A DNA stretch of 23,857 nt from a virus: positions 1-23,857 of IMG/VR virus record IMGVR_UViG_3300025131_000427; one strand, given 5' to 3'. The position numbers and the translations under genes were made by a program. Every line of letters starts with the position of its first letter. Position 1 is the stretch's first letter. Below, piece by piece: positions 2,367-21,217 of this stretch. The notes below the pieces were generated by a model. It saw nothing but the letters and a program-made list of their open reading frames with translations, made no database searches and was not told where the DNA came from.

Positions 2367-4028
2367 ATGCCAGTACGTAACAGAGTAATTTACCAAAGTC
2401 AGGCCGTTTACGTTTCGCAAGACGTAAACTGCACAGGGATAGCAACGGAAACAACTGATAACGTAGACCTCAATAGAATTCAAAGTTGTAATTACAGTTT
2501 CAATATAAGTCGACAGGACGTTAACCAGTTTGGTGAACTAGGGGCCATAGATCGAATTATTACCGATACTCCCACTGTCTCTTTGGATGGAAGCTACATG
2601 GTGGCTAACTTGGGTAACGAAGCAAAGTTGGGATTTAACGTTTGGGCAGGGCCGACAACGGCTACAAACTCTATCGTTTCCTGCATTTCGGGGATTGTCA
2701 ATTCCGAAACAAATGACGGAGTTAAGAATTACTATATTGTTACAACCGCAGAAGGTTCTGACGCCATAGAGAACACCGTTAGCGGAAAGTACGAAAGCAT
2801 AGTGGGGATAGGAAACGCAAGTTTGACTTCCTACTCTACTGAGGGCGCAGTGGGTGGATTGCCTACCGCGAGCTTCTCCGTGGAAGGTCAAAACATGAAC
2901 GTCGTTCATACTCCTTATACGGGAATGTACGAAGGGTATACTGGGACTCTCGTAGGCCTTGATCCCGAAAAAGCGTTTAACCCCCTAGCTATTGATGGTT
3001 ATGGTTACCGGACTGCGGGTCAGGTTGTCTTTACTGTCACTGGAGCGGCTCCAGTTGCGGGCGGCCCAGAACCCGTCACAGAAGGCCCAAACAAAACAGT
3101 TGAAATAACAGATGGTGTTTTTGTTGGGGCTTTGGGGGTTACTCGAACCGGAATCGCAGCTACTATTCCTTCCAACAAAGTGTTTACTCATGACGACACT
3201 GGTTCGGACGAAAAAACAATAACCCTGTCTAACATGGTGGAAAAGGGAGCTCAGCAGGTGATTGGAACTGTGGCTGGTGACGATTTAGTTACTGGGGATA
3301 CTTTTACCGGGACTTTTGATGATGTCGTTGCTTATATTTCTGGCTCCAACCCCTCAATAGATCCCACGTTAGGGGTTCAGCCAACATGGCCCCCTACTAG
3401 CGGAGGAACGGCTCTTGCTGCACCGGTTGGCACAGATGAGCCCGTGGCCCCTATTATATTACCTGTCCCGACAACAAATTTAAACACTTCAGATGTCAAC
3501 CCTAGTGGTTCTATTTCTACGTTACGCCCCGGAGACATTACGTTGACTTTGAAGCAGTCACCTTACGCAGACGATACTGCTGCTGGTGTACCGGGAGCTT
3601 CAATAACTAACGCTCATATTCAAAGTTATACCATAAGTTTTGATTTGTCCCGAACCCCTATTCAGAAACTGGGAAGTAGGTTTGCTTTTGCGCGTCCCAT
3701 TGATTTTCCGATTAGCGCTTCGTTTAGTTTTGATGCAATTCTATCTGATTTAACCACGGGAAATATTGGTGATATTATAGATTGTGATACCAATTATGAT
3801 GCGAGGGTATCTCTCAAGAATACGCCAGATTGCAATGCGCCTACCGTGAAAGATGAGATTATAGTTTATGACCTCAAAAGGCTTAAACTGGATAACCAAT
3901 CTTTTTCGTCCTCTGTCGGAGACAATAAAACCGTAACCTTTGATTTCACATGTCAAGTGGGAGGACCGGAGCAGACGGATGTTGGAGTCTTTATGAGTGG
4001 TTATTCTACCGAGCTGGCACAGCAATAA
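2367..4028 (+). CDS. Tail tube-type protein, copy 2 with large internal insertion
   Basis: A 553-residue paralog of the preceding protein, with the same start (RNRVIYQS), NQFGEL, DRIITDTPTVS, VEGQNMN (172-178), LRPGDITL (386-393), DLSRTPIQKLG and a near-identical C-terminus (DFTCQVGGPEQ...GVFMSG). The main difference is the 207-residue segment between VEGQNMN and LRPGDITL, which is 131 residues longer than in copy 1. It is Thr/Gly/Val/Pro-rich (for example GYRTAGQVVFTVTGAAPVAG from 211) and ends in a Pro-rich linker (about 335-372), consistent with an added immunoglobulin-like or other surface-exposed beta domain. It may be a decorated tube subunit or a distinct tube or tube-end protein. It lies 16 bp after copy 1 with an AAAAAGG ribosome binding site (2352-2358), so the two are co-translated from one message, and a strong terminator follows. 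Confidence 0.75.
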   Translation: MPVRNRVIYQSQAVYVSQDVNCTGIATETTDNVDLNRIQSCNYSFNISRQDVNQFGELGAIDRIITDTPTVSLDGSYMVANLGNEAKLGFNVWAGPTTATNSIVSCISGIVNSETNDGVKNYYIVTTAEGSDAIENTVSGKYESIVGIGNASLTSYSTEGAVGGLPTASFSVEGQNMNVVHTPYTGMYEGYTGTLVGLDPEKAFNPLAIDGYGYRTAGQVVFTVTGAAPVAGGPEPVTEGPNKTVEITDGVFVGALGVTRTGIAATIPSNKVFTHDDTGSDEKTITLSNMVEKGAQQVIGTVAGDDLVTGDTFTGTFDDVVAYISGSNPSIDPTLGVQPTWPPTSGGTALAAPVGTDEPVAPIILPVPTTNLNTSDVNPSGSISTLRPGDITLTLKQSPYADDTAAGVPGASITNAHIQSYTISFDLSRTPIQKLGSRFAFARPIDFPISASFSFDAILSDLTTGNIGDIIDCDTNYDARVSLKNTPDCNAPTVKDEIIVYDLKRLKLDNQSFSSSVGDNKTVTFDFTCQVGGPEQTDVGVFMSGYSTELAQQ

Positions 4029-6228: not shown

Positions 6229-9200
6229 ATGGCTAAGGATAAAATTACTATTGAACTCGAGATTGAGAGTAGAAGAGCTCAGCGAGAGGTCGACAAAATC
6301 CAAAAACAAGTTAAGGCTCTCGGGAAAAGCATGGGGGTGTCTATGGGTGGGGGGAAATCGGGGGGAGCAGACAAGGTTAGAGCTCTGGGAACCGGTCTTT
6401 CCAAGGCCACAGTTAAGGCTGACGAGTTTAGCAAGTCGATGGAGGCTTCCAATGCCCGCGTTATAGCTTTCGGGGCCTCTGCGGGGCTAATAATGGGGGT
6501 TGATCGAGCCTTAAGAGCGATGGTTGCTTCCGCCATCAAAGTCGAGAAAGCCATGATGGATGTTAATATCGTCATGGACCTCAATAGCAAACAATTAGAG
6601 AAGTTTGGGAGAGGAATGTTCAAGGTTGCCAAGGAAACGGCCCAAGGCTTTGAAACGGTGGCGGAGGCGACTACTGAATTTGCTCGTCAAGGTTTGGGGA
6701 TGGAAAAAACCTTAGTGCGAACCAAAGACGCGCTTATTTTGACTCGGCTTACAGGAATGAACGCTGCAGATTCCGTTAAGAGCCTTACTGCGGCCGTAAA
6801 CTCGTTCAATAAAGAAGGGGTAACTTCCGCCCAAGTAATCAACCGTATGGCAAAGGTTGATCAGAAGTTTGCTGTAAGTTCTGAAGATTTAGCTAAGTCC
6901 ATTTCCCGCGTGGGAGCTTCCGCTGTTGCCGCTGGTGTTAATATGAACGAGTTAATGGCCATTACTACGGCTGTGCAACAAAGAACTGCGCGTGGTGGTG
7001 CTGTTATTGGTAACGCTTTTAAGACTATTTTTACGCGTATTCAGCGTAGTGATGTGAAGACTCGTTTGAGGGATTTGGGGGTAGCCATTACCGATAACAA
7101 CGGCAAAATGCTTTCAGGAATGAAAGTTCTCCAAAATTTGGCTAATGAGTTTGATAATTTAAGTCGCGCACAAAAATCTCAAATATCAGAAAACGTAGCT
7201 GGTGTGTTTCAGGTGAATATATTGAAGGCGGCATTGGCTGATTTATCCCAAGAAACGTCAAACTATAAGGGAGCGTTAGAGGCAGCCAGCTCGGCGACTG
7301 ATGAGGCCTATCAGAAGAATGAAAAATTAAATACAACCTTAGATACTCTAGTTAACAAAACATTGGTTAATTTAACACAAGCGGGAGCTACGCTTGGTGG
7401 AGCTACTCTGGGTCCCGCAATAGAAAGGGTACTTAATACCGTAAATTCTACAATAGAAGCTTTCGGTAAAGAGGGAAGATTCGCGAGCTTTGGTGAAGGG
7501 CTTGGAAAGGATCTCTTGGCTGGAATAGGGCGCTTTATGTCAGGACCGGGGGTGGCGCTGGCCACTGCCGTCTTTGCTAAACTAGCTTTGAGCCTCGGTA
7601 AATTTGCCTCACAGGCGTTTAAGGACATTTTGGGTATAAATGACGCAACCAAACAGCGTGCCGCCTTGGAAGAAGCTGTTGTTCAAACGATAATGAAAGA
7701 GCCCGGCCTTTTAAATAAGGTAAAGAAGGGGACGCTCGATATTAAAACGCTTGAACAAGATATTTTAACCACTCTTAAGTTACAAAGCGCCGAAAGAGCC
7801 AAAATGCAGGCTTATGCGGCCCCGGTTGCAAAAGCTTTAGGAAAACGAGGGGTTGTTACTGGATCCAAGGGGGTTACTATAAAGCCACCCGGAAGAGCGG
7901 GAGGATTTGTGCCGAGTTTTGCGGCGGGCGGTGAAAGGGCCGCGGCAGCAGCCGGGGGTTATGCTGCTGGTGCTATAAAGACCATGAATCAGCCGGGGGC
8001 AGGATCTGTAATGTACAATTCTGCCGAAACAGTTAAACGTTTTCCCGGAATGTCCCAGTCAGCAATCATGCCGCCACAGGGAAGCCCTGCTGGAGCCGGA
8101 TATAAGGCTGCGTTTGGTGCGGCTCATGGTTTTGACCCCTATGCTGGCGCAGGTTTTATCCCTAATTTTCCAAGGGTCTCGACGAAGAGGAAAAAAACCG
8201 CGGCTGAGGTCCAAGAGGAGGAGATCATGAGGAACAAGAAGAAGTATAAAGAAGTTCCTCATACTATACATGTAAATTTACAGAGCAAGAAAAGAGATAT
8301 CGGTATAGTTACCGAACATGGATCCGACGCCAGCCCAATTGAATACCGTCAAGATATGAAGGGCAAAACAGGAATCCCTCAGTTAGCGAGTCACCCGAGT
8401 ATTAAGAGTTTAACGGACAAAGGAAGGATGTCTAAAGATGGGCGTCTTCATAAACTTAGTAATATAAAATTTAACGTACGTGGTATCCCGATTGTTCCCC
8501 TTTTCCCTATAGGGGACGATTCAGGAGGAGTCTTCGCTCGAGATAAGGTGGAAGGTTTTAAACCCTTGGAAACTGCTTTGAATAAATACGCCAAGACACT
8601 TTCGGCCAAAATGTTTAAGGGTGGAACCGCTCCCGAAATAGCTCCTTTTAAAACTAAAGATTTAAATAATGGAACAATGGGGGATATTTTCGAAGCCGGA
8701 CTAAGGTCTGCTGTGGGCGGTAATCCCTCGGAAGACAAGGCGGCTGCATTCGATTTTAGTGGAGCTGCTTATGCTCCCCAGAGGCTTATAGAATTTTTAA
8801 ATACAAAAAATGCGAACCTGCTGGATGTGAAATCCAAGATAGAAAGCAAAATAGGGTTTGAGGCCGCCAGTAGCGGTCATCTTCCGAAAAAATTTATTAA
8901 CGACGCGTTAGCTGCTGAACAAGGCAAAGGTGAGCGGGTAGGGTCTAAGTGGTCGAGTATTATGGCCAATATCACAAAGCAATTCAAGACCAAGGCTGGA
9001 ATCAGCTCAGCAGCAATGGGCTTCGTCCCAAATTTTTCTCCTTTAACTGATGCCGTTGGAAGGGAGATGACGGCTGGAGTTCCAGCCTCTGCGATAAAGG
9101 TGGGGTCTAATCCCGCTTTGAAGTCTTCAGGCAACCGGGGAGGGTTGGGGGTTTATAATACTATAGATGAGCCCGGCGGTCTTGGCCAAGGAATTTCAAG

Positions 9201-12200
9201 GTCCAGATCTCAAGGGATGAACCCTAAAACTCATGGGGCCGCTGGAGGTTTTGTTCCTAATTTTCCCGCGCCTTTAGTAATAGGCCCTATTTTGAAAGCG
9301 CTGGCGTGGATCGGCACCGGAATAATGTCGCTGTTGCCATTTATCAAAAAAACAGCAACGGCAACTAGTAAGACCGCTACGGCTGCGGCGGCCCCCGCCA
9401 AAGAGTTTGCTTCAAAGCATAGCACTATAGCCGGTGTGTTGGGATACGGGGTAATGGATCAATTAGCAGGAGCGGGACCGGGTGGTCAAGTCGCTTCTAC
9501 TATGGGGTGGATGGGTGGTGCCGGAGCCGCCATGGGAGGGCCCGGGAAGAGACTTAAATATGGATTAATGGGGGCAGGGTTTGGGGCTTTTACGCAATGG
9601 TCGAATATATCAAAGATGTTGGGCGAAGACGCCGATACCGTTGTGGATGCATTACAGGAGGAAGCTGAAGCGCAGAAAAGTTTGGGATCACTGGCTATGG
9701 CTGCGGCAGCTTCAGTAAAGGTTTTGGGAGAAGAGTTGGATGCTTTGACTCTTATAGAGTTAAGGAAGAAAACCATAGAGACCCTCAGAAAGGAGAATCC
9801 GGAAAGTTTTGCCCGTATGGAAGGCACTAAGGAGTATAGGAATGTGCTCAAAGCATCCTCCGCAGCTCAATTGGGAGAGAGTTTAGGGGAATACGGCGCT
9901 AGAGCGAACCGACAAAAAGCTATCAGGGAGGTAACTATGGGCGTTTCCGAAACGCAAAGCGTTGGTATATTGGGTGTTGGTCGCCAAAAACTTGATCCTA
10001 CGTTCGGACAAGGTATGGAGGAACAGTTGATGAAAAAATTTGGTGTCTCATCCAAAGCCGAAATGTTAGAAGCTTTAAAACTTCCGTCAACCGAAGGGGA
10101 TACGAGTGACTTAGCAGTAGCCACGTACAATTACTACAAAAGAAAAAAAGAAATTGAAGAAAGTGATCCGACGATCAAGGGTGTTAAAGGGGCGGGAACA
10201 GTCACGGGCAAGCAATATTTATCGGCAATAATGGGGACGGACGCTTTCAGTTCCGATAGAATAATGGCGAGACTTCGGAAAAATGAAGGGTTTGCGGCGG
10301 GAGGTGCTAATGCTGGAATAGACGATGATTATACAGCCAAGCTCAAAGAAAGTACAATCCCCCAAATCATGGCAATGGCTACGGGTGCAGACGCCAAAGA
10401 TTTTGAAAAGCAAGCTGAGTTTATTAAGAGCTTTTTGGATCCGAAACAGATAGAGGAATTTAGGGCATCCCTTATTGCGGGGGTAACTGACTTGGATACC
10501 TATAACGCCTACGTAAAGAAAGCTGAAGAGATAGAAAAACAAAAAGCCATTGATTCACAAAAAATCATTGACACGAACTTGGGTCTAATAAATTCGGTTA
10601 CCTCCCTCAATAGAAGTTTCCTTCTTGTGGGGCAAGCAGCAGATCTTACCTACAAGCTTCAGCAGAAAGCCAACAAGCAATCCTTGGCCATGTACAAGGT
10701 CGACCAACAAATTTCCATGACTGGTGCCTCCTCTTTTCAAACAAAACGAGGTATGATAGATTTACAGGAAACCACGGCCAAAAACCTTGCGGTAGAGACG
10801 CGCATAAAGGGGATTGAAGGTCTAGGGGATAAGAGGACTCGAGACATTACAAAGGCTCAAGTGAAGGCCGGGTCAAAGGCGGGTATAGAGTTCTTGAAGC
10901 TAATGGAAGAAGGGAAGCTTGCTGGTAAGGGCGGAATTAACCGCGAGGCAGGAATGAAAGCGGCCAATGCGAAGATGCAGGGTATGGCGACTGAGTTTGG
11001 GGCTGCGAAAACGCCAAAAGAAGCAGCCGCTATATTGGCTAAATACATGGGAGAGCAGAATACGTTGCTCGCAAAGAAAAGCGAAGAGGGAGCCGAGCTG
11101 AAATGGGAGGAGGGTTATACTTTGTCAGCGTTAAATACTATACTCCCTGAGTTGCAAAAAATAATGGGAGACACCATTAGTGCCCGAGAATTAATACTCG
11201 CCACAGAAGAAGATCAAAAAGAGGCAGCTGAAAAAGCCAAGGAGTTGGCTATCGCTAGGTACAAGAGTGAAATTGAATTAAACGAGGAAGAGCGGAGAAT
11301 GGCGCGAGGAAAGAAGGTGTTACTAGCCATTCAGGAAGAGGCGGAGGCTCGTACGCGTTTCGGTCAAGGTCAAATCGGGTTTGGGGGATTAATGAGCTCC
11401 AAGAGGGCTAATCTGGAGGCTAGGAGGGCTGCTACAGGCATGAACGAAGCGGAGATTAGAAAAGAGTTCGGCGACGAAGGTGCCGCCCTCCTTAAGGGAC
11501 AGAATTTAACAGCGGCGGGTATAGCCGCAGACGACTTAAAGTTAACTATAGAAGAGTTAGATAATTCCTTTAGTGGGGCGGGTAACAATATTGTCGATTC
11601 TACCAGAATAATGGCGAACGCCTTAAGGGATGCGGCGAGTGACTTGGTGTCTTTTGAGGAGGCTACTCAATCTGCAACAGCCCGAGAAAAAGCCGAAGGA
11701 TATTATAAAAAAGGTCTTATTACTTCCGATCAGTTACGTGGTCGACGGGCAGCTGACAGGTTGAATAGGAGAAGGAGGGGAGGCGCAAGATCCGGAGATA
11801 TGATGGAGGCTTTCAGGGATCAATTTTTATACAATGGTCAGGACCATATGGATGAGTTTGAAGAGGGAGTGATTGGTGTCGCGGAGACAATGAAATCTTC
11901 CTTTGCTGACGCCTTTAAGTCGCTGACAAGTGGTGCCTCTTCAGGAAAGGAGGCCCTGAAGGCTTTCGCCGATAGTATATTAAACAGCATCTCTGATATT
12001 AGTGCCAAAATGGCAACTAACATGTTGTTTTCGAGTATGGGGGGCAACGCTCAGGGTGGGTATATTCCACGGTTCCAAGGAGGAGGGGTAGTAGCTGGGG
12101 GATCGGGGTTTAAGGATGATGTTCCGGCGCTGATGAGTGGAGGAGAGTATGTTATAAAGAAATCCTCTGCTCAAAAAATTGGTTATGGTACTTTAAATGC

Positions 12201-13320
12201 AATAAACAGTGGAGGAAGTCGCGGAGGTTCTATTCCTCATTACGCAGAGGGAGGCTCTACCGCTGGTAGTGGAGAGTTTAGCGGAACTGACATGGCAAAA
12301 ATGTACGGCATATCAGCGGCGGCAAGCATGGCTTCAGGTTACCTAAATCGCCCCGACAAAACCGCCAAACAAACTTCCCGAAATTACGGATTGGGAAGAG
12401 ACGAATATGGTTATTTCGGAGGAGCCGATCCTGATGCGGGAGGGAGCGATGCTATTAGAGGTGGGGGCCGCCGAGCAAGTGTTTCCTTAAACAAGGCTTT
12501 TGTTTACTATAGGCGCGATCCAGTAACGGGTCAGTTGATTAGTGAAAGAGCTCGTCCAACAGAGGGTCGTTTTGAAACTAGTAGCCTCTTATCAACGCGA
12601 GCGATGTTGCGGGAGGATGACCCTCAGACGGCTAGGATATTCAGCAAGGAGGGAAAAATGGCCGAATACCAGCAAACCCGGGCCGATTGGAAAAAGAACA
12701 AGGAGGACACTCTTAAGGCCCACTACAAGGCTCAGAATGCTCGTACCATAGGGGCGTGGGTAAATGCCGCGATGATAATCGCGGGGGGCTACAAGAGTAT
12801 TGGGGCTGATTGGTCAGCCGCTACATCTGCGGGTGGGGCCACGCAATCTACGAGACCTTTTAAAGTGGGATCCGGCGAAATAGTGGTTGCAAGAGGAGGT
12901 TCAATTCCCAAGTTTGGTGGAGGAGGAAAAGTTTCTCCTGCGATGTTAATGGGTGGCGAATATGTGATGAGCCCCGAGGCTGTCAGGACTCATGGTGTAA
13001 ACTTCATGAGCGAATTGAATCGTGGTAATGTTCCCGGCGGGGCAGGTGGCGGTTTCTTCATGGGGGGTGGCGGAGGGGCCGTGTCTGGGTCTGCTCCGAC
13101 AACCAACAATGTAAAAATCAATATCAATATCGACAAGAGCGGCAAGGCCGAGGTTGGCTCAAGTACCGAACCGCTTTCTGATGGAGGACAGGACGAGAGA
13201 GACACCAATAACGAAGCACAAGACAACAAGAATATGGCCGAGTTATTGCAGGGTGTCGTCTTAAGTGAGATAGCCAAACAGCAACGACCGGGAGGACTGC
13301 TTCAGAATGCAAGACCTTAG
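6229..13320 (+). CDS. Tail tape measure protein, TP901-type core, with inserted domains
   Basis: A 2363-residue tape measure protein. It sets tail length, is threaded inside the tube and is normally released during infection. The N-terminus (about 1-45) is a coiled coil. Residues 60-340 match the TP901 tape-measure core: a hydrophobic helix after VIAFGASAGLIMG, then helical segments with GFETVAEATTEFARQG, TGMNAADSVKSLTAAVNSF and a TRLRDLGVAI end. Residues 558-1012 hold four GFVPNF-type repeats (558, 642, 931, 1007) flanking an inserted domain with nuclease-like residues (E822, D842, D866, K868). A hydrophobic segment follows (about 1013-1036), then long helical regions (about 1130-1900). The C-terminus is Gly-rich with three GG(Y/S)IP(R/H/K)(F/Y) motifs (1943, 1999, 2223) and two GGEYV(I/M) motifs (1971 and 2242) of the kind common near tape-measure C-termini. 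At about 0.15 nm per residue the full length would predict a tail near 350 nm, less if the inserts are globular. A weak ribosome binding site (AGG at 6223-6225) precedes ATG 6229. Confidence 0.93.
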   Translation: MAKDKITIELEIESRRAQREVDKIQKQVKALGKSMGVSMGGGKSGGADKVRALGTGLSKATVKADEFSKSMEASNARVIAFGASAGLIMGVDRALRAMVASAIKVEKAMMDVNIVMDLNSKQLEKFGRGMFKVAKETAQGFETVAEATTEFARQGLGMEKTLVRTKDALILTRLTGMNAADSVKSLTAAVNSFNKEGVTSAQVINRMAKVDQKFAVSSEDLAKSISRVGASAVAAGVNMNELMAITTAVQQRTARGGAVIGNAFKTIFTRIQRSDVKTRLRDLGVAITDNNGKMLSGMKVLQNLANEFDNLSRAQKSQISENVAGVFQVNILKAALADLSQETSNYKGALEAASSATDEAYQKNEKLNTTLDTLVNKTLVNLTQAGATLGGATLGPAIERVLNTVNSTIEAFGKEGRFASFGEGLGKDLLAGIGRFMSGPGVALATAVFAKLALSLGKFASQAFKDILGINDATKQRAALEEAVVQTIMKEPGLLNKVKKGTLDIKTLEQDILTTLKLQSAERAKMQAYAAPVAKALGKRGVVTGSKGVTIKPPGRAGGFVPSFAAGGERAAAAAGGYAAGAIKTMNQPGAGSVMYNSAETVKRFPGMSQSAIMPPQGSPAGAGYKAAFGAAHGFDPYAGAGFIPNFPRVSTKRKKTAAEVQEEEIMRNKKKYKEVPHTIHVNLQSKKRDIGIVTEHGSDASPIEYRQDMKGKTGIPQLASHPSIKSLTDKGRMSKDGRLHKLSNIKFNVRGIPIVPLFPIGDDSGGVFARDKVEGFKPLETALNKYAKTLSAKMFKGGTAPEIAPFKTKDLNNGTMGDIFEAGLRSAVGGNPSEDKAAAFDFSGAAYAPQRLIEFLNTKNANLLDVKSKIESKIGFEAASSGHLPKKFINDALAAEQGKGERVGSKWSSIMANITKQFKTKAGISSAAMGFVPNFSPLTDAVGREMTAGVPASAIKVGSNPALKSSGNRGGLGVYNTIDEPGGLGQGISRSRSQGMNPKTHGAAGGFVPNFPAPLVIGPILKALAWIGTGIMSLLPFIKKTATATSKTATAAAAPAKEFASKHSTIAGVLGYGVMDQLAGAGPGGQVASTMGWMGGAGAAMGGPGKRLKYGLMGAGFGAFTQWSNISKMLGEDADTVVDALQEEAEAQKSLGSLAMAAAASVKVLGEELDALTLIELRKKTIETLRKENPESFARMEGTKEYRNVLKASSAAQLGESLGEYGARANRQKAIREVTMGVSETQSVGILGVGRQKLDPTFGQGMEEQLMKKFGVSSKAEMLEALKLPSTEGDTSDLAVATYNYYKRKKEIEESDPTIKGVKGAGTVTGKQYLSAIMGTDAFSSDRIMARLRKNEGFAAGGANAGIDDDYTAKLKESTIPQIMAMATGADAKDFEKQAEFIKSFLDPKQIEEFRASLIAGVTDLDTYNAYVKKAEEIEKQKAIDSQKIIDTNLGLINSVTSLNRSFLLVGQAADLTYKLQQKANKQSLAMYKVDQQISMTGASSFQTKRGMIDLQETTAKNLAVETRIKGIEGLGDKRTRDITKAQVKAGSKAGIEFLKLMEEGKLAGKGGINREAGMKAANAKMQGMATEFGAAKTPKEAAAILAKYMGEQNTLLAKKSEEGAELKWEEGYTLSALNTILPELQKIMGDTISARELILATEEDQKEAAEKAKELAIARYKSEIELNEEERRMARGKKVLLAIQEEAEARTRFGQGQIGFGGLMSSKRANLEARRAATGMNEAEIRKEFGDEGAALLKGQNLTAAGIAADDLKLTIEELDNSFSGAGNNIVDSTRIMANALRDAASDLVSFEEATQSATAREKAEGYYKKGLITSDQLRGRRAADRLNRRRRGGARSGDMMEAFRDQFLYNGQDHMDEFEEGVIGVAETMKSSFADAFKSLTSGASSGKEALKAFADSILNSISDISAKMATNMLFSSMGGNAQGGYIPRFQGGGVVAGGSGFKDDVPALMSGGEYVIKKSSAQKIGYGTLNAINSGGSRGGSIPHYAEGGSTAGSGEFSGTDMAKMYGISAAASMASGYLNRPDKTAKQTSRNYGLGRDEYGYFGGADPDAGGSDAIRGGGRRASVSLNKAFVYYRRDPVTGQLISERARPTEGRFETSSLLSTRAMLREDDPQTARIFSKEGKMAEYQQTRADWKKNKEDTLKAHYKAQNARTIGAWVNAAMIIAGGYKSIGADWSAATSAGGATQSTRPFKVGSGEIVVARGGSIPKFGGGGKVSPAMLMGGEYVMSPEAVRTHGVNFMSELNRGNVPGGAGGGFFMGGGGGAVSGSAPTTNNVKININIDKSGKAEVGSSTEPLSDGGQDERDTNNEAQDNKNMAELLQGVVLSEIAKQQRPGGLLQNARP
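7900..9264 (+). repeat. GFVPNF-type protein repeats inside the tape measure gene
   Basis: Four divergent copies of the coding motif Gly-Phe-(Val/Ile)-Pro-(Asn/Ser)-Phe lie at residues 558-564 (GGFVPSF, 7900-7920), 642-647 (GFIPNF, 8152-8169), 931-936 (GFVPNF, 9019-9036) and 1007-1012 (GFVPNF, 9247-9264). Each follows an Ala/Gly-rich stretch and comes before a change in sequence character. The spacing is irregular, so they look like boundaries between modules, not a regular structural repeat. I recall similar motifs in tape measure proteins of uncultured aquatic phages, but this needs checking. Confidence 0.8.
8671..8874 (+). other. Candidate PD-(D/E)XK-like nuclease domain within the tape measure protein
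   Basis: Residues 815-882 of the tape measure protein contain, in order, a helix with GDIFEAGL (Glu822), a strand with AFDFSG (Asp842), and a strand with LLDVKSK (Asp866-Val-Lys868). The order helix-Glu, Asp, then D-x-K at a spacing of 24 residues matches the active-site layout of PD-(D/E)XK nucleases. The domain lies between the second and third GFVPNF repeats and is preceded by a beta-rich segment (about 675-790). The assignment rests on motif geometry only; a non-catalytic domain with the same fold or a chance match is possible. Confidence 0.4.
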
Positions 13321-14189
13321 TGACGTGCTCTCTCTAGTTCTTTAAGTCTGTTTTCTATCTGCGAAAGCTTCTGTTCAAGCATTTCAATGGCTTGATTATA
13401 GATGGTATGTACGTTGGGACTGTTGGGGGCCATCAAGGGGAGGTTATTTTTCGGGGAAAAATCTTTTGTGATGGTGCATACCTTACAATAACAATCTTCA
13501 AAGTTGAATTCGCGATCAATATATATGACTTGTTTGGTTAGCATCATTTCACCAACGCTTACCCCAAGAGGCAGCCTATACGAAAGCCTAAGCGTGGATT
13601 CCATGGGGGTACTTTTGATGCTCTCCACTTCCCGTTGAACCATGGGGGTGCTTTCCGCTGGTTCGAATTGGAGTTTTACTTCAACGGGAATATCCCTTTC
13701 GTTTATGGCAGTTACTTTGCCCTCAGGAATCTGCGTGTATGCCCCCGCCTTGTGTATTTCCACTTGGGAGACTTCTCCTTTTTCGGTGACTTTTGCCACC
13801 CTTATCTCGCATTGTTGTCCCGTAATGTTTTGGGTGGAGTTAGATACGATTCCTTCCTGACAGTAAAGGATTTCTCCCACATCCAGATTATAGCCTCCCT
13901 TAACTAGCTCAACACCCGAAACTCTCCATTCCTCGTAGTGAAGGTTAATACTGTCTCCCGGCGTTATTTTGTAGTTATAATTTCCTTTTATCTTTATTTC
14001 GTTTTCCTCGGGGGAAGTAAAAGGTCTCTTGATATTTAATTCCTCGGAGCTTTCTATTTTAAACAATGTTTCATTCGAGGCTATCTTTAAAAGGGCGTTA
14101 TGCGGTGTGGCTATTTTTCTATTGTTAGAAACTATATAGAGCTTGTTGGAGCTTCTGAGGATTGAACCTTCAAATACTTCGGCTTTCAT
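13317..14189 (-). CDS. Virion-associated protein with C-terminal coiled coil, distal to J
   Basis: A 290-residue protein starting at ATG 14189 (MKAEVFEGS...), 7 nt after the stop of the J gene. A longer reading from 14309 is open but would overlap J by 113 nt and adds a poor N-terminus, so I reject it. The protein is beta-rich for about 250 residues and ends in a short, regular coiled coil (IEMLEQKLSQIENRLKELER, about 267-286), as seen in trimeric fibre-associated or chaperone-like proteins. I do not recognise a family. Its position as the last gene after J suggests a tail-fibre accessory, second receptor-binding protein or fibre-assembly factor. Its stop overlaps the stop of the convergent tape measure gene. 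Confidence 0.8.
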   Translation of the reverse strand: MKAEVFEGSILRSSNKLYIVSNNRKIATPHNALLKIASNETLFKIESSEELNIKRPFTSPEENEIKIKGNYNYKITPGDSINLHYEEWRVSGVELVKGGYNLDVGEILYCQEGIVSNSTQNITGQQCEIRVAKVTEKGEVSQVEIHKAGAYTQIPEGKVTAINERDIPVEVKLQFEPAESTPMVQREVESIKSTPMESTLRLSYRLPLGVSVGEMMLTKQVIYIDREFNFEDCYCKVCTITKDFSPKNNLPLMAPNSPNVHTIYNQAIEMLEQKLSQIENRLKELERARH

Positions 14190-14196
14190 TACTGTA

Positions 14197-17100
14197 TTAT
14201 ACGTGTCTATGGTAGGAGTTTTCCAAAAATCCAACGACAATTTGCAGATTATAAGGGATGTCAGGGTTTGCAAAGCTTCCATCATACCAAAAATTGGAAT
14301 CGTTTCCATACTGTACGAAAAGTTTAACAGATGACTGGCTTTCTTTAGTTTCCAGCATCTTCACAGTAGGGTATACACGGTTTACATTGGATGCCCAACT
14401 AAAGACGTCATTGGGGGTGGTAACGCCACCAATAGGTATAAGCGCCCGAACTACTTCCGGTTGAGGGGTTGGTTGTCTGTATGCGTTATCGTACCACGAC
14501 CAACTGCTGTAGACCTGTATAATTGGAGTGGGTTGTGTTAAGCTATTAAGGGGTTCATTAAAGAAAATTTCTATGGTTGTGCAAAGCAACGGGAAAGACG
14601 CTTCGTAGTCGTCGGGATCTTTCCCGCCATGCTTCGTTATTACCCTTTCGAAAGAGTTTTCTATTATTTGTACATCTTTAATGTTTCTTCCCACCAAGTT
14701 GTTTTTGTCGATTTGTTTAATATTTTCTCTTCCAACGGAGCCCACGGCCTCAACGCCAGCTGGAGTAAGGTGCCATGTGTAGTATCCGGGAGGTTGCGGT
14801 AAGAACCATTCAGGTTTCATCTCCTGCCAATAAGTTGGATATAGGCTATCGCCGCCTGCAGGTCCATAGACCGCAGGTCTGCAGGGTTTGAAACTAAAAT
14901 CGCACCACGCTTTATAGCTTAGATCTTTGTCTTTTGTCGTAATCATACTTTCCTCAACAACAAGAAAAGAAGTTGGGTTTTCTGTAGTTTTGTATCTTCC
15001 GTGTTCGGTTCCCCCAAATGATATATTTATGTTTTCTAAACCGTCTACAAAAAACTTGGTTGCAAGCTTGGAAAATTTAATACTGGGGTCTGTAAAGATA
15101 GTGGCTATTTCTTCTGTCGCGGGCCCGGGGCTTTCTCCAGAGTCTTCTGGGGGTGTCCTTGTGTAAGTTACGGTTTTTGTTTTGGGAGATCCGTCATCAT
15201 TGAAATGAGCAAGATAAGAGAGTTGATCGAAAACTCCAATACAGAATTGGGCATTGTCGACGCTTACAACTTTTGATTTTGGACCAGCTCCCGGCAGAAC
15301 TTCTAAGATGTCAGAAACTTTTTGCCCCGGCTCCAAAAGCATATAATCCCTGAAGACAGTTGAGTTTTCTGTATTGGCTTCGTTGTACTCTGTGGGCTTA
15401 ATTAATACGCTGGCGTCTTTTTGGGCTTGTCCTGCGACATCGGTGGCCACATTTCCGAACTTTCTACCACTTATAGAACCGGCTATTGCATTTCGATCAA
15501 TTATAAATTGAGGCGCGCGCCACAGGGGTATTCTATTTACCACAGGCGTGTTAGGGTTTCCCGGTGTTTTGTGAACCTCATACAAGTCTTCGTTACCTGT
15601 GGTATAATAGTAAACGATTCCAGCCGCTTCAGCAAATATATCGTCAATTTGAGTTTGGTTAAGTATAAAGTTGCCTTCTTGAGAGCTTTCGGATTCATCT
15701 ATGGCCAGTTGGGTCATCCCGTTAGGGAAGGTTTTCATCGATGCCAAGTAAGGGTAGTCTAGATTAAAGGCTTGTGCCGGTGAGACAAATTGGGAATCCA
15801 GCAGGTTTCCTTCAGAGGGAAATACTATTCCTGATATGGGTTCTATGTAGCAGCCGAGAATGTCGTAGCCTCCCAAATGACCCGCGCTGTTGTCTGTGTT
15901 TCTATAGTCCCAAGTCTCACTGCTATCGTCATTGGTGTTTATAGTGTTGTCATATACCCTGTTTGAGTTTTTAGTGGCTACTATGGTGGAGTTTCCTACG
16001 CTGGTTCTTCCTTCGGTGTCATGGGCTTCTACTACGATGTCAAATTTACGAATTGGTAATGAAAGTCCCGACTGCACCAAATACCCACTTGCATCGTTTT
16101 TGAAGTAGTTCTTATTTATCGCTACTCCTCCTCCAGCCACAGAGTTTGAGTGGTTGTATGCGTCGTAAATATTGGGGTTATTGTAATCTGTGCCGAATGT
16201 AAATGAAGGGGCACTCATTACGGTCGAATTGTAACCGGTGAACTCAAAATATATGTTTGTGCTGGGTGTGTTTTTTGAGCTGGGATCAGCTGGTTCTCTT
16301 ATTGTTATTCGATAGTCTACTTCATCATTGGTTATATAAATTCCCGGTTCATCAAATTGTATGTTAATTCCGGCTTGCCAAGTGAAGTTCGGGGTGTTTC
16401 CCGGAATAGGTATAGAGTTGACTGAAGTGGGTTTTTCTCCCGGAGTTCCCCCAGTTCCGCTGGGGATATTGGAAGTGGTTAATCCGTAAATGTCAATCGC
16501 ATTAGCTAAACTTTGGGTTCCTATAATATCCTCTTTGGCGAGTACTCCTATAGCTCCGCAAGGGGCCAATACCCCGTAGGGAGAAATAGCAAAAACACTA
16601 ATATGGTGGTCTACCTGTTCCGAGATAAATACGTTCCCTTCTATTATATCTGAGGGAAGCCCGTCGGAGTTAAGTTGTCTTTTGGATTCGTCAGAACCGG
16701 GGATTACGAGTTGATGGTAGGGTTCGTGATAAAGTTTGTAGCCGGTTGCGTCTGTGCCATTGTACCCTAGATCTGTAGGGGTGTCCCCGGGGATTGTCGT
16801 AAAATCTTCGCCTGTTTTAATGGCAACCAAATAATCTATTGAATTGTTTATTGTTCCGTCTTCAATGGAACTATAACCAACCGCCATGAAGGAAAAATTT
16901 AAAAGTTCATATTGTTGTTGATCTGCTCCTCCTATTTTGGGGTCTCTTCGTCCTACCGAAAGACTTTTTACGCAATTTGGTTTACTCTTCAGGAAAGAAT
17001 TTTCGAAGGTAACTTTCTGTTCAACATTGTCATATTTTCCGCTAAAATAGGAAAGCGCCGAAATGTCATAAGTCTGGTCGGTGTTTTCCTTGGAGTTTAT

Positions 17101-19683
17101 TATTCGGAAGTTAGAGAAGTTTCCGCTGTAAAATTCCTTATCAGTTTCATCATATGGTTCCACGCTCCACACTAAATTTTCTCCGCTAAAATATCCTCCA
17201 GAATATTCGACTGAAGTGTTGGAGTTTCCATCCACATTTACGCCACTGTTGATGTACCCTGTTATTACATAATTATCAAAATCTAGTTGATTGCCGGTGG
17301 GTGCGTCGAAGTCCGCGTTAGCAAAATAGGATTGATTAAATGGAGCGCCCGTCTTGAAGAAGATCTGAGTGTTAACCCCGCTTCCCCCTAGTTCAAAATC
17401 GGATCGATAGTCTCCTGTCGTGGTGGTGGTATGGGCTCCACTGAAGTATAAGGTTTGCAGGTTGCTTCTCTTGAGTTCTCTTATTCCGCTTGAGTTTAGC
17501 CCCTCTACGCTAGCGTCATAGTTGTATGTTGGGGTAAGTAGGGAGAATTTGTAAGCTTTGTCCGCGGTGAAATTCAAGGCTGAATCTAATATAACACTAT
17601 TGTAGGCAGGGTTGTTTATGGCGCTGCTAGCGGGGCTGTCGGTGGGGGTTAGTCCGTTAACCATGTTGGTTCTGCCGCTATATTTCAGCGGGCTTATATT
17701 GTTATCATAAATTTGAACTATATCGCCGGGTTTAAGATAGGCTCCTGCTGTTCCCATTTTAAAACTTACCGAATCTGTTTCGTCTTTTTCGCTCGCCAAT
17801 ATCCACAACCCAAACCTTCGGGCTTGGCCCCGGCTTGTGCACCCTATAGCGGCGGTTTCTATTTGGCGGATGCCGTATTTCTTGATTGCTTCTTCGTCAG
17901 AAACATATTCTATGGCGGGTTGGAAAAAGTTTCTTTTATCAATGTACCTGACGAGAGCCACCGTATGACGAGCCTTCTTGGCAGATGATGCGTACGTAAA
18001 GTCTCCGTCAACCACATTTGAGTTATTAAGTTGGTAAATGGGTTTCTTGTAGGCGTCCTGAACTGCAAAAACCAAACCGTTTGAATAATAGGTCAATCCA
18101 CGAAAGGCCGAGGCCAAATCGTTTATTAGTTTGTACGCTTCCTCTCTCGATATTATAAGATGGTTTAGGGTGAATCGAGGTTCAACTGACCCGTAGCCGT
18201 CTGGCACAAGGACATCGCAATACTGGGCTATTTCGTACAAAGCCCATTTGTCTATTTCCGATTCTTTTAAATACCCCCCTAATCCGTATCGGGGGTTGGT
18301 GAGCATGTCGTAGAAACACCAAGCAGGGTTATCACTCCATACTTTTTCATCTAAAAAATTTCCATCCCAAAAATTGGCAGGATCAGTGCCGTAATTATTT
18401 GATGGATTGGTGGTGGGGCTCACTCCCCCACTTTGACCGTAGGTTTTCGTTACAGGGTCATAGTTATTTGGGATTTTTATTTTTTGCAGTTTCGCGTCAT
18501 AAGCTCGTGCGGGAATTCGACTAAAGTTATCGGCGTCAAATTTGGAATAAACCATGGCGGTATAGGGATAGCGCAGTTTGGTTCCGTAAATTTCTACGAT
18601 TGAGTCCACAAAAGTTACCGCCCTAAAAAAGGAGGTAAGCGGTTCGGGGGTAAGCCTTACTATTCTTACTCTCCATCCGTCAAAGCCGTCTTCGTCTTTA
18701 TAGTTCCCCACGTCCGCCTCTAGGTTTATTTTGGTAGAACGAATGTATCCTTGGTCTATTTTACCGAACACCCTTTCTGTTACTGGTCCATACCACTTGG
18801 TTTGTCTTTTTTTTGTTGTTATGTCGTCGTTGGTAGTTGGATTTTTAAACTCACTGTCGGAGGGTAAGCTAAACCTCTCATCAAAAACAGGTTGGTAATA
18901 TATCCAGTACTCCACGGTACGGGCTTTTATGTCGCCGTACCCTACTGGGCCAGTATCAAACATCATCGGTGCCGGTTTGATTCTTTTGAAGGTTTTTGGG
19001 GCGTTAGGATTTCGTATACTTTCGCTGAGGGCTGATACCTTGACATTAACGATTAACGAACTGCATTCGCGGTTGAGTACAGTATAAGTCTTGGCGTTTT
19101 TATCTATTTTGGTGTTGGTTTTTAATTCCGCTCCCGTGGAGTACGTTGGAGCGTTTTCGTTTCCTTTAATGTCGGGTCCGTAAAGTCTTTCTCCGATATT
19201 TCGGTTGACGCTTAAGTCTAAAATTTCTGAAGCGGTCAATCCTCCCATGTTGGCATTTAAGGATGGCAAGTTTCCCCCCGGTTCACCATTGACCCATTCC
19301 ACGTTAATACTTTGAAAATTGTAATAACCGTCTTCATCAACCACCGGCACTTGATTCCAATATACGGATCGGAGAAATCCCAAAGATGGCAACGGGTTAT
19401 CTAGGTCAAAGCTCGTTCCTGTGGCTTTGTAGCGGTTATTGGGATCGTAAGTTCCAAAGGGGGAACCTTCATCGGGAGTAACTACTTTCTGGAACCCCGT
19501 TTCCCCTGCTGTTCCGAAATAGTCGTAGCGTCCACTAACCAGTCCCTGTATGGGTCCTTCGCACAGTAAGTCGGCAACCTCTATGTGAGACTCAGAAACA
19601 ACCGGAATGCCGGTATTTCCCCCGCTCGCAACAGCTCCTATGTCAGTTACGTTAGGTCTTGCTTGTTCTACATATTCTCCCAT
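14197..19683 (-). CDS. J: Central tail fibre / host-specificity protein J
   Basis: An 1828-residue J-family tip protein; lambda J has 1132 residues. It forms the central tip and fibre and determines receptor binding. Evidence: near the N-terminus EVADLLCEGPIQGLVSG (35-51) matches the J signature EGPI-x-G. The region around 452-507 is typical J: NPAWCFYDML, GLGGYL, DKWALYEIAQYCD, VPDG and EPRFTLN. Near 640-680 comes the J-type AxxRxG segment (GQARRFGLWILASE) followed by LKPGDIVQI. The N-terminal third is therefore well supported. After about residue 700 the sequence is Gly/Ser/Asn/Tyr-rich and beta-structured, with a possible fibronectin-III-like stretch near 1115-1160, and then unrecognised to the end, consistent with a host-specific region. 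A strong AAGGAG site (19694-19699) lies 10 bp before ATG 19683. The gene follows I by 14 bp. Confidence 0.93.
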   Translation of the reverse strand: MGEYVEQARPNVTDIGAVASGGNTGIPVVSESHIEVADLLCEGPIQGLVSGRYDYFGTAGETGFQKVVTPDEGSPFGTYDPNNRYKATGTSFDLDNPLPSLGFLRSVYWNQVPVVDEDGYYNFQSINVEWVNGEPGGNLPSLNANMGGLTASEILDLSVNRNIGERLYGPDIKGNENAPTYSTGAELKTNTKIDKNAKTYTVLNRECSSLIVNVKVSALSESIRNPNAPKTFKRIKPAPMMFDTGPVGYGDIKARTVEYWIYYQPVFDERFSLPSDSEFKNPTTNDDITTKKRQTKWYGPVTERVFGKIDQGYIRSTKINLEADVGNYKDEDGFDGWRVRIVRLTPEPLTSFFRAVTFVDSIVEIYGTKLRYPYTAMVYSKFDADNFSRIPARAYDAKLQKIKIPNNYDPVTKTYGQSGGVSPTTNPSNNYGTDPANFWDGNFLDEKVWSDNPAWCFYDMLTNPRYGLGGYLKESEIDKWALYEIAQYCDVLVPDGYGSVEPRFTLNHLIISREEAYKLINDLASAFRGLTYYSNGLVFAVQDAYKKPIYQLNNSNVVDGDFTYASSAKKARHTVALVRYIDKRNFFQPAIEYVSDEEAIKKYGIRQIETAAIGCTSRGQARRFGLWILASEKDETDSVSFKMGTAGAYLKPGDIVQIYDNNISPLKYSGRTNMVNGLTPTDSPASSAINNPAYNSVILDSALNFTADKAYKFSLLTPTYNYDASVEGLNSSGIRELKRSNLQTLYFSGAHTTTTTGDYRSDFELGGSGVNTQIFFKTGAPFNQSYFANADFDAPTGNQLDFDNYVITGYINSGVNVDGNSNTSVEYSGGYFSGENLVWSVEPYDETDKEFYSGNFSNFRIINSKENTDQTYDISALSYFSGKYDNVEQKVTFENSFLKSKPNCVKSLSVGRRDPKIGGADQQQYELLNFSFMAVGYSSIEDGTINNSIDYLVAIKTGEDFTTIPGDTPTDLGYNGTDATGYKLYHEPYHQLVIPGSDESKRQLNSDGLPSDIIEGNVFISEQVDHHISVFAISPYGVLAPCGAIGVLAKEDIIGTQSLANAIDIYGLTTSNIPSGTGGTPGEKPTSVNSIPIPGNTPNFTWQAGINIQFDEPGIYITNDEVDYRITIREPADPSSKNTPSTNIYFEFTGYNSTVMSAPSFTFGTDYNNPNIYDAYNHSNSVAGGGVAINKNYFKNDASGYLVQSGLSLPIRKFDIVVEAHDTEGRTSVGNSTIVATKNSNRVYDNTINTNDDSSETWDYRNTDNSAGHLGGYDILGCYIEPISGIVFPSEGNLLDSQFVSPAQAFNLDYPYLASMKTFPNGMTQLAIDESESSQEGNFILNQTQIDDIFAEAAGIVYYYTTGNEDLYEVHKTPGNPNTPVVNRIPLWRAPQFIIDRNAIAGSISGRKFGNVATDVAGQAQKDASVLIKPTEYNEANTENSTVFRDYMLLEPGQKVSDILEVLPGAGPKSKVVSVDNAQFCIGVFDQLSYLAHFNDDGSPKTKTVTYTRTPPEDSGESPGPATEEIATIFTDPSIKFSKLATKFFVDGLENINISFGGTEHGRYKTTENPTSFLVVEESMITTKDKDLSYKAWCDFSFKPCRPAVYGPAGGDSLYPTYWQEMKPEWFLPQPPGYYTWHLTPAGVEAVGSVGRENIKQIDKNNLVGRNIKDVQIIENSFERVITKHGGKDPDDYEASFPLLCTTIEIFFNEPLNSLTQPTPIIQVYSSWSWYDNAYRQPTPQPEVVRALIPIGGVTTPNDVFSWASNVNRVYPTVKMLETKESQSSVKLFVQYGNDSNFWYDGSFANPDIPYNLQIVVGFLENSYHRHV

Positions 19684-19697
19684 TTACTTTTTTCTCC

Positions 19698-20474
19698 TTA
19701 TCCGCCCGGGGTTCCTGACCAGTCTGAGTCGTATTGCACCCTGCGCTTGAGACGTTCTCCTGCCGATGGATTAGTTACCCTATAAATCAGTCCTTTGGCT
19801 GCATTTCCCCATGTCTTGTTCAGGGAGATATCCGCAGCCGTGTCAAGTGTATCCAGAGAGGTTTGAATGACGTGACTTCCGACTAGAAGTCTGCCGTACC
19901 CTACAAAAACAGGGCCACCTTCCCTTACGGTATTTTGGGGACCACTAAACATGTAGGAGGGTTTCCCTCCCCCTTCAATTTCTCTTACGTCTTCAAATTT
20001 AGGGGTGGGGGTAAGGAGGTTAGATACTCCTGCCGCCAAAAGCCCTATACCTGCCATTATTAAATAAGGATTGCCTCCCATCCAAATCCCAACAGCTATT
20101 AATATAATTCCGGCAATTATTGCAAAGATAGACTTTGAATCCGCTTTTTTTTCGGCGGATGATTCTCCTTCCATTACCGGAACTATATCGATTGTTTTAA
20201 GCTCTTTAAACTTCATCGCCAGTTCTGATGACCTGATTCCCTCTTCGGTGTTTGGGTCTTTGCCTTCTTCTACCAAGAAATCTTTTTTGTTTATTAATAC
20301 CCTGTATTTAATATTTTTCTCGTCATTTTCTATAAGAGATTTATAGAGCGTTTTGCAGTTGGCCTGAATCCCTCTCATAGCTTCTCCCACGCTGCTTGCA
20401 GCCAAGTCAAAATGTTGTCTTCCTACCTGTTCCGACAGGACACCATGCAAAGTTATGTGTGTTAGTTTTCTCAT
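19698..20474 (-). CDS. I: Tail assembly protein I
   Basis: A 258-residue homolog of lambda gpI, required for assembly of the tail tip with J. The N-terminal ~105 residues have the beta-grasp-like character of the family, starting with ITLHGVLSEQVGRQHFDLAA. A central Ala/Gly/Ile-rich segment (about 115-155, with SIFAIIAGIILIAVGIWMGG and a second hydrophobic helix) is typical of I proteins and can score as membrane-spanning. The C-terminal part contains the PxFVGYGRLLVGS motif (about 188-200) seen in this family, and ends in a short Arg-rich stretch. The start ATG (20474) overlaps the stop of K as ATGA, and J follows after 14 bp, the lambda order K-I-J. Confidence 0.9.
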   Translation of the reverse strand: MRKLTHITLHGVLSEQVGRQHFDLAASSVGEAMRGIQANCKTLYKSLIENDEKNIKYRVLINKKDFLVEEGKDPNTEEGIRSSELAMKFKELKTIDIVPVMEGESSAEKKADSKSIFAIIAGIILIAVGIWMGGNPYLIMAGIGLLAAGVSNLLTPTPKFEDVREIEGGGKPSYMFSGPQNTVREGGPVFVGYGRLLVGSHVIQTSLDTLDTAADISLNKTWGNAAKGLIYRVTNPSAGERLKRRVQYDSDWSGTPGG

Positions 20475-21217
20475 TGGGGTCTATAGGCGTAAATTATTCG
20501 GTTGGAAAAGGAGGTGCTCACCCTTTCTGTAGTAACATGTTTGTTTCTGGGGTGATGGATAACCATATTATTTCCTAAATACACTGCTAAGTGAAGCGGA
20601 GTATCGTTTTCCCGCAATCCTATCACTAAAATATCGTTCTTCTTTAAGTCCTCCATTTGGGATACAGCTATCTTTAGGAAATCTTTTTTAGTATAAGATA
20701 CCGCTACTTCGTCAATAAGGTCTATAGCTTTCTGTAGGTTTTCTTTTTGAGCTCCAAAAGAGTAAGCTTCACACACCTCCTGAGGAAGTTTAGCCTGTGT
20801 GTTTTTGTTTATATAGTCTCGGACCAAAGTAAAACAATCGTTTACCCCAACTTTGAAAGGCTTGTTGAGGTACAGCGTCTTGTGCTTTTTGGGGTTAAAT
20901 TCGCGAAAAGAATTATTTTTGATGTTAAACATTATGTAGTTAACGTTGTGGTAGGAACTATTTGTCTTGTCCGCTTCCGAAAACTCTTCTTCTTCTAAGT
21001 GGGAATGGTAAACGCTTTTAATTTTTCCTCGGGAGGAGCACTTCAGGTAGTCCAGTGGGTCTAGGGAAAAGCTGGTTAGCGGGGAAGTGGAAATGTTTCG
21101 GCATTTAAAAACTTTATAGGCGGTATCTTTTTTAACTATCAAACCACAGCACTCGTTTGGGGAGTCTTCCAAGGCGTGGGACTTAATGTGTTCTTTTATG
21201 TGTTGTGTTAGTTTCAT
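20471..21217 (-). CDS. K: Tail assembly protein K: JAMM/MPN peptidase plus NlpC/P60 domain
   Basis: A 248-residue two-domain hydrolase of the lambda gpK type. The N-terminal JAMM/MPN domain (about 1-115) has Glu22 in NECCGLIV, then His71-Ser-His73, Ser80 and Asp83, the zinc-binding JAMM set. The loop between the second His and the Ser has six residues; the usual JAMM consensus has seven. The C-terminal NlpC/P60 domain (about 118-248) has Cys128 in VNDCFTLVRDYI, His209 in LHLAVYLGNN and His221/222 in VIHHPR as the likely catalytic triad. NlpC/P60 domains cleave cell-wall peptides, so K may process a tip component and locally open the peptidoglycan; this is family knowledge. ATG 21217 overlaps the L stop and the K stop overlaps the I start, so L-K-I are translationally coupled. 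Confidence 0.93.
   Translation of the reverse strand: MKLTQHIKEHIKSHALEDSPNECCGLIVKKDTAYKVFKCRNISTSPLTSFSLDPLDYLKCSSRGKIKSVYHSHLEEEEFSEADKTNSSYHNVNYIMFNIKNNSFREFNPKKHKTLYLNKPFKVGVNDCFTLVRDYINKNTQAKLPQEVCEAYSFGAQKENLQKAIDLIDEVAVSYTKKDFLKIAVSQMEDLKKNDILVIGLRENDTPLHLAVYLGNNMVIHHPRNKHVTTERVSTSFSNRIIYAYRPQ

Follow-up and report, generated by a model that had tools for sequence, protein, structure and literature searches.

The tail tape measure protein (TMP) encoded in a 23,857-nucleotide stretch of viral DNA (IMG/VR record IMGVR_UViG_3300025131_000427, hereafter the window) contains a discrete domain that bears the residue pattern of PD-(D/E)XK nucleases and sits at a fixed slot, where it has been replaced repeatedly in related phages, also by unrelated nuclease-like domains. 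This cassette is probably an exchangeable, virion-delivered and metal-dependent nuclease with an active site of the PD-(D/E)XK type.

Organization of the tape measure protein and its cassette

Both its homology to known tape measure families and its position among tail genes identify the protein as a phage TMP. The lambda-type tail genes of the window comprise minor tail protein L, NlpC/JAB, and J-like tip and minor tail families, encoded on the minus strand. The domain occupies residues 648-930, between the repeats GFIPNF-642 and GFVPNF-931 (Table 1). The first-pass annotation had pointed to positions 8155-9036 of the window, corresponding to TMP residues 643-936, as a stretch bracketed by two such repeats with a beta-rich segment ahead of E822. 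The bracketing is confirmed, with GFIPNF on the left and GFVPNF on the right, and the AlphaFold model indeed places strands at residues 675-685, 691-698, 701-709 and 740-760. On both sides, the slot is flanked by conserved sequence: the pre-block is 75-92% identical across 9 related TMPs and the post-block 68-92% identical over residues 951-1000 among related TMPs. A hydropathy scan also revealed a hydrophobic helix before or after the cassette in many related TMPs.

Table 1. Coordinates of the TMP, its cassette slot and the motif residues in the window
Feature	Positions	Strand	Evidence
Tail TMP, 2363 aa	6229..13320	+	open frame; Pfam PhageMin_Tail 1e-26; PHROG tape measure families to 8e-56
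PhageMin_Tail homology region of TMP, aa 135-325	6631..7203	+	Pfam
Pre-block, upstream edge of cassette slot; repeats GFVPSF (aa 559) and GFIPNF (aa 642)	7873..8169	+	
GFIPNF repeat, aa 642, left cassette border	8152..8169	+	DNA repeat family with 9018-9038 and 9246-9266
Cassette, PD-(D/E)XK-like domain, aa 648-930	8170..9018	+	family alignments A3, A4, A9; purifying constraint
E822, predicted metal ligand, on helix	8692..8694	+	invariant 50/50; helix 814-828 in model
F841-D842, predicted 'PD' acidic residue	8749..8754	+	invariant 50/50
D866-V-K868, motif of the first-pass annotation, within insertion, not conserved	8824..8832	+	DVR in L012, PTK in L016, mostly gap
E872-S-K874, conserved (D/E)xK	8842..8850	+	872 D/E 50/50; K874 50/50; strand 870-874
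K888, further invariant lysine, in the helix that follows	8890..8892	+	49/49 in A9, 28/28 in A4
Post-block, downstream edge, GFVPNF (aa 931) to GFVPNF (aa 1007)	9019..9264	+	
Membrane-helix-like hydrophobic stretch, aa 1021-1039, directly past cassette	9289..9345	+	hydropathy scan

Several other genes of the window were noted. A JAB and NlpC/P60 protein of the lambda K type (20471-21217, minus strand) belongs to a tail-tip module convergent to the TMP gene. Two minus-strand frames, 13317-14309 and 14197-19683, overlap by about 110 bases, and the shorter of them, of 330 residues, is without a family match. The consecutive genes 1007-2350 and 2367-4028 have similar starts (RNRVIYQSxAVYV) and similar ends, which makes them tandem paralogues; they could perhaps encode two tail tube proteins, with no family match.

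Conserved residues of the cassette domain

E822, D842, D866 and K868, previously put forward as the catalytic set, all sit at the assigned positions of the translation. Their conservation was assessed in an alignment of 50 non-redundant relatives of the cassette domain (A9), where E822 and D842 are invariant; D866 and K868 are not conserved among the relatives. The closest relative found by direct search (L001, on the same contig as L012; 82% identical) has DVR where the window has D866-V-K868, and the next one (L016; 42%) has PTK aligned to it. The insertion carrying this motif is largely confined to the window, L012 and L016, while mostly gaps or other residues occupy it in 28 relatives. D866 and K868 were therefore rejected as active-site residues, and the role of the third motif passes to E872-x-K874. 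Indeed, when the relatives are aligned to the window, their (D/E)xK falls on E872-S-K874, six residues away from D866-V-K868, with D at position 872 in 45 of the 50 and E in the other 5.

Across these relatives, the only columns of the domain that are at least 95% acidic are those of E822, D842 and position 872, and the only invariant lysines are K874 and K888, the latter in the 49 rows that reach its column. In sub-family B, described below, the D lies in an FDV motif two columns away in alignment A4 and is kept as FD in the sub-family's own alignment. An FE ... DF ... (D/E)xK pattern recurs at the slot in TMP orthologues found via the N-terminus and the upstream flank. Furthermore, the domain is under purifying constraint, with a dN of 0.106 and a dS of 0.61 between the window and L012. 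As judged from these alignments, the ordered set of an acidic residue, D and (D/E)xK kept in the relatives (E822, D842, E872-x-K874) is the PD-(D/E)XK pattern. The proposal of such a pattern embedded in the TMP thus stands with E822 and D842, and falls for D866 and K868 as catalytic residues.

Replacement of the cassette at a fixed slot

TMPs that are 72-79% identical to that of the window over the first ~424 residues carry unalignable domains in the slot. Indeed, in comparisons of close TMPs, the flanking blocks are mostly ~72-96% identical and the cassettes 3-32%. A scan with the upstream flank (pre-block) alone retrieved 51 viral loci, one of which (L062) ends ahead of the slot, leaving 50 resolvable loci, some of them nearly identical to each other and the window not counted. 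Their occupants belong to sub-families A (11 loci), B (12) and C (10), to family D (16) and, in L060, to an SNase-like type, an assignment that used models built from the same sequences, so that the residues, and not the assignment, constitute the evidence. An E...D...(D/E)xK domain is present in 49 of these 50 slots, in two mutually unalignable families (A-C and D). Since hhalign, run with the flanking repeats removed, linked A to C with 97.9% and A to B with 83.7% probability, these three sub-families, which align onto the motif, most likely form one family. Family D, found in the same slot, could not be aligned to A-C by hhalign; its E, P-x-D and ExK are nearly invariant, with the textbook form PVDLIG...P-x-EVKSG, in an alignment that also took in the SNase-like L060, the row that departs. 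In L060 (7548-9461) the SNase-like domain fills the slot itself and gives weak nuclease matches in Pfam, PHROG and NCBIfam, and in L043 (3582-5624) such a domain forms a second cassette, scoring 25.6 bits in Pfam against a cut-off of 21.

Profile searches with the B and C domains led to TMP frames in 73 of 73 loci (L068-L140, partly on the same contigs as earlier loci), mostly at residues 620-950, and TMP N-terminal homology was detected wherever the contig includes that end. A natural empty site was found in L011, whose TMP is 67% identical to that of the window in the N-terminus and has neither the GFVPNF pre-block nor a cassette. On a tree of TMP N-termini (82 rows), the distribution of cassette types needs at least 12 changes, the least possible number being 5. 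The types are clustered on this tree yet repeatedly replaced, and the clade of the window alone holds A, B, C and 'none'. The cargo-like behaviour suggested by the first-pass annotation is thus borne out, since the domain swaps between TMPs at a fixed slot and SNase-like domains occur as alternative occupants.

Additional cassettes were seen in two further loci. L061 (10256-14212) has a second TMP cassette with NDWYDFDETL, which is HAD phosphatase-like, and L015 (11077-12253, on the same contig as L009) carries, past its nuclease-like cassette, an extra one that contains LANELTHLIQDRF and is possibly a peptidase; Pfam gave no match for either.

Fold and family searches

AlphaFold models were generated for the window domain (28 sequences; pLDDT 77, pTM 0.65) and for the relative L085 (50 sequences; pLDDT 84.6, pTM 0.75). 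In each model the E822 position is helical and (D/E)xK lies on a strand, after which come one or more helices that carry K888; a helical E822 and a strand with E872-K874 are as expected for PD-(D/E)XK enzymes. The region of D842 is one of the parts with the lowest confidence in either model, and the secondary structure departs from the canonical alpha-beta-beta-beta-alpha-beta order, with the motif region of low confidence. Foldseek searches with the two models, in which the D842 region is of low confidence, gave no significant match and none to the restriction-endonuclease fold (best E 0.9, 0.38 and 0.7). The PD-(D/E)XK superfamily is structurally divergent.

Sequence searches with the window domain against Pfam, PHROGs and the solved structures of the PDB gave no match, and Pfam searches with its relatives gave none that was significant. 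In an hhalign family comparison that included two control families, no match to UPF0102, Mrr, RecB-like or VRR_NUC was obtained, and the known families mostly missed each other too; against RecB-like, ADFK/EVK was placed on the DYK motif at a non-significant level. The domain, the flank and two cassette types had no match among 50,697 annotated phage records, and no mention of the GFVPNF motif was found in the literature covered. When a genome collection was searched with the flank, only 5 contigs were retrieved, all binned in metagenome-assembled genomes. The metagenome-assembled genomes that hold the related TMP contigs L064, L065 and L066 carry the labels Flavobacteriales and Halobacteriovorax; these labels are the only host hint and may be binning artefacts.

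Proposed function of the cassette

E822, D842 and E872-x-K874 would constitute the active site, with K888 probably assisting. The TMP, packed in the tail lumen, would exit on infection together with the DNA or before it, and insert in the envelope. There is support from other phages for TMPs reaching the envelope; during injection, for instance, the lambda TMP is found at ManYZ, an inner-membrane complex (PMC13190303). The cassette would travel with the TMP into the new host and cut nucleic acid there, the likeliest target being host or competitor DNA and not the phage's own genome. Recombination in the conserved flanks would allow phages to swap the cassette, presumably in response to resistance evolving in hosts or rival elements. 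Against this nuclease reading stand the negative Foldseek and Pfam searches and the lack of an immunity-type gene after the TMP gene, and a folded 30-kDa domain inside the tail lumen is a steric problem. A toxin with an adjacent immunity gene was considered and rejected, since no immunity-type gene lies 3' of the TMP gene, where the neighbouring gene is a convergent one on the minus strand.

The cassette could instead be a non-catalytic structural or binding module, for example one that binds an envelope receptor or an inner-membrane protein and diversifies with the host, its acidic/lysine set being structural or metal-binding. The restriction of the domain to TMPs (73 loci) and the fold unrecognised by Foldseek would suit such a module, as would the contact of the lambda TMP with a host inner-membrane protein, where a variable TMP region tracks host-factor use. 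However, it would be unexpected for a binding module under host pressure to retain E/D/(D/E)xK as the sole invariant charged residues of two families that cannot be aligned, or to give way to SNase-like domains, and we consider this explanation unlikely, though worth keeping in mind. The same SNase-like occupants, together with the order E, D, (D/E)xK, which is that of PD-(D/E)XK enzymes, and the textbook spacing of family D, render it improbable that the cassette is another enzyme with a similar acidic/lysine set, such as a phosphoesterase or a nucleotide-processing enzyme acting on host signals. This possibility draws on the non-canonical secondary structure of the AlphaFold models and on the several enzymes of this kind that polyvalent phage proteins carry (PMC5512222).

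A selfish homing-type nuclease, which would cut cassette-less or differently occupied TMP genes and be copied in by repair without any cargo benefit, could account for the fixed insertion site, the gains and replacements that recur on the backbone tree and the natural empty site in L011. It is nevertheless highly improbable, as the domain is translated in frame within the TMP with no splicing element, nearly all members are occupied, unrelated families alternate in one slot and the domain itself is under purifying constraint. An intein or intein-borne homing endonuclease was rejected, since the TMP has no intein/Hint family match and the domain lies in frame between conserved repeats.

On the exchangeable nuclease reading, the TMP of a large group of uncultured lambda-type tailed phages may well be a platform for an interchangeable injected nuclease, a polymorphic effector sent in with every genome, with PD-(D/E)XK-like families and SNase-like domains alternating in one slot. 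TMPs, usually the largest proteins of the tail, are also among the least understood of them, and the TMP gene of a pelagiphage is reported to be a hypervariable 'metaviromic island' (PMC5628999). A slot for nuclease-like cassettes would offer a testable reason for such hypervariability, namely a tail-borne antibacterial or anti-rival enzyme that keeps changing. It would also connect phage tails with contractile injection systems loaded with effectors, and add a new and so far unannotated family of candidate nucleases whose active-site residues can be named. The literature covered, which lacks most subscription papers and preprints, yielded no cassette slot of this kind in phage TMPs.

Comparison with known systems

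The cassette shares with the PD-(D/E)XK superfamily the ordered E (helix), D and (D/E)xK (strand), and family D has the classic PVD...EVK. On the other hand, it has no detectable sequence or fold match to the described families (which mostly missed each other in hhalign), and its spacing from D to (D/E)xK is longer, with 30 residues in the window.

Polyvalent proteins and MuF fusions are likewise linked to virions and composed of multiple domains, and they carry effector enzymes, nucleases among them, that can be exchanged; their context is head/MuF or conjugative, and the passages of PMC5512222 that were covered do not describe TMP cassettes. Effectors of the Sle1 type also combine a TMP-like scaffold with swappable functional domains, but they belong to actinobacterial injection systems and their domains are C-terminal, with no nuclease reported (PMC13277306).

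That TMPs or TMP-related effectors are able to carry enzymes has been shown for P23-45 and Tme, both precedents for the putative enzymatic cassette. In P23-45, gp96 is a virion RNA polymerase fused to the TMP, so that the enzyme is embedded in a phage TMP and present in the virion as part of it (PMC10770324); unlike the cassette, it is an N-terminal RNA polymerase and no exchangeable slot has been described. Tme, a TMP-related effector of a Streptomyces contractile injection system, has an endonuclease domain (PMC11126660). Its domain is EndA-like, of the DNA/RNA non-specific type, C-terminal and part of a bacterial system, whereas the cassette is internal to a phage TMP and of another nuclease type; in Tme, as proposed here for the cassette, the nuclease is borne by a TMP-related protein, and Tme is delivered by a phage-tail-like machine (PMC11126660).
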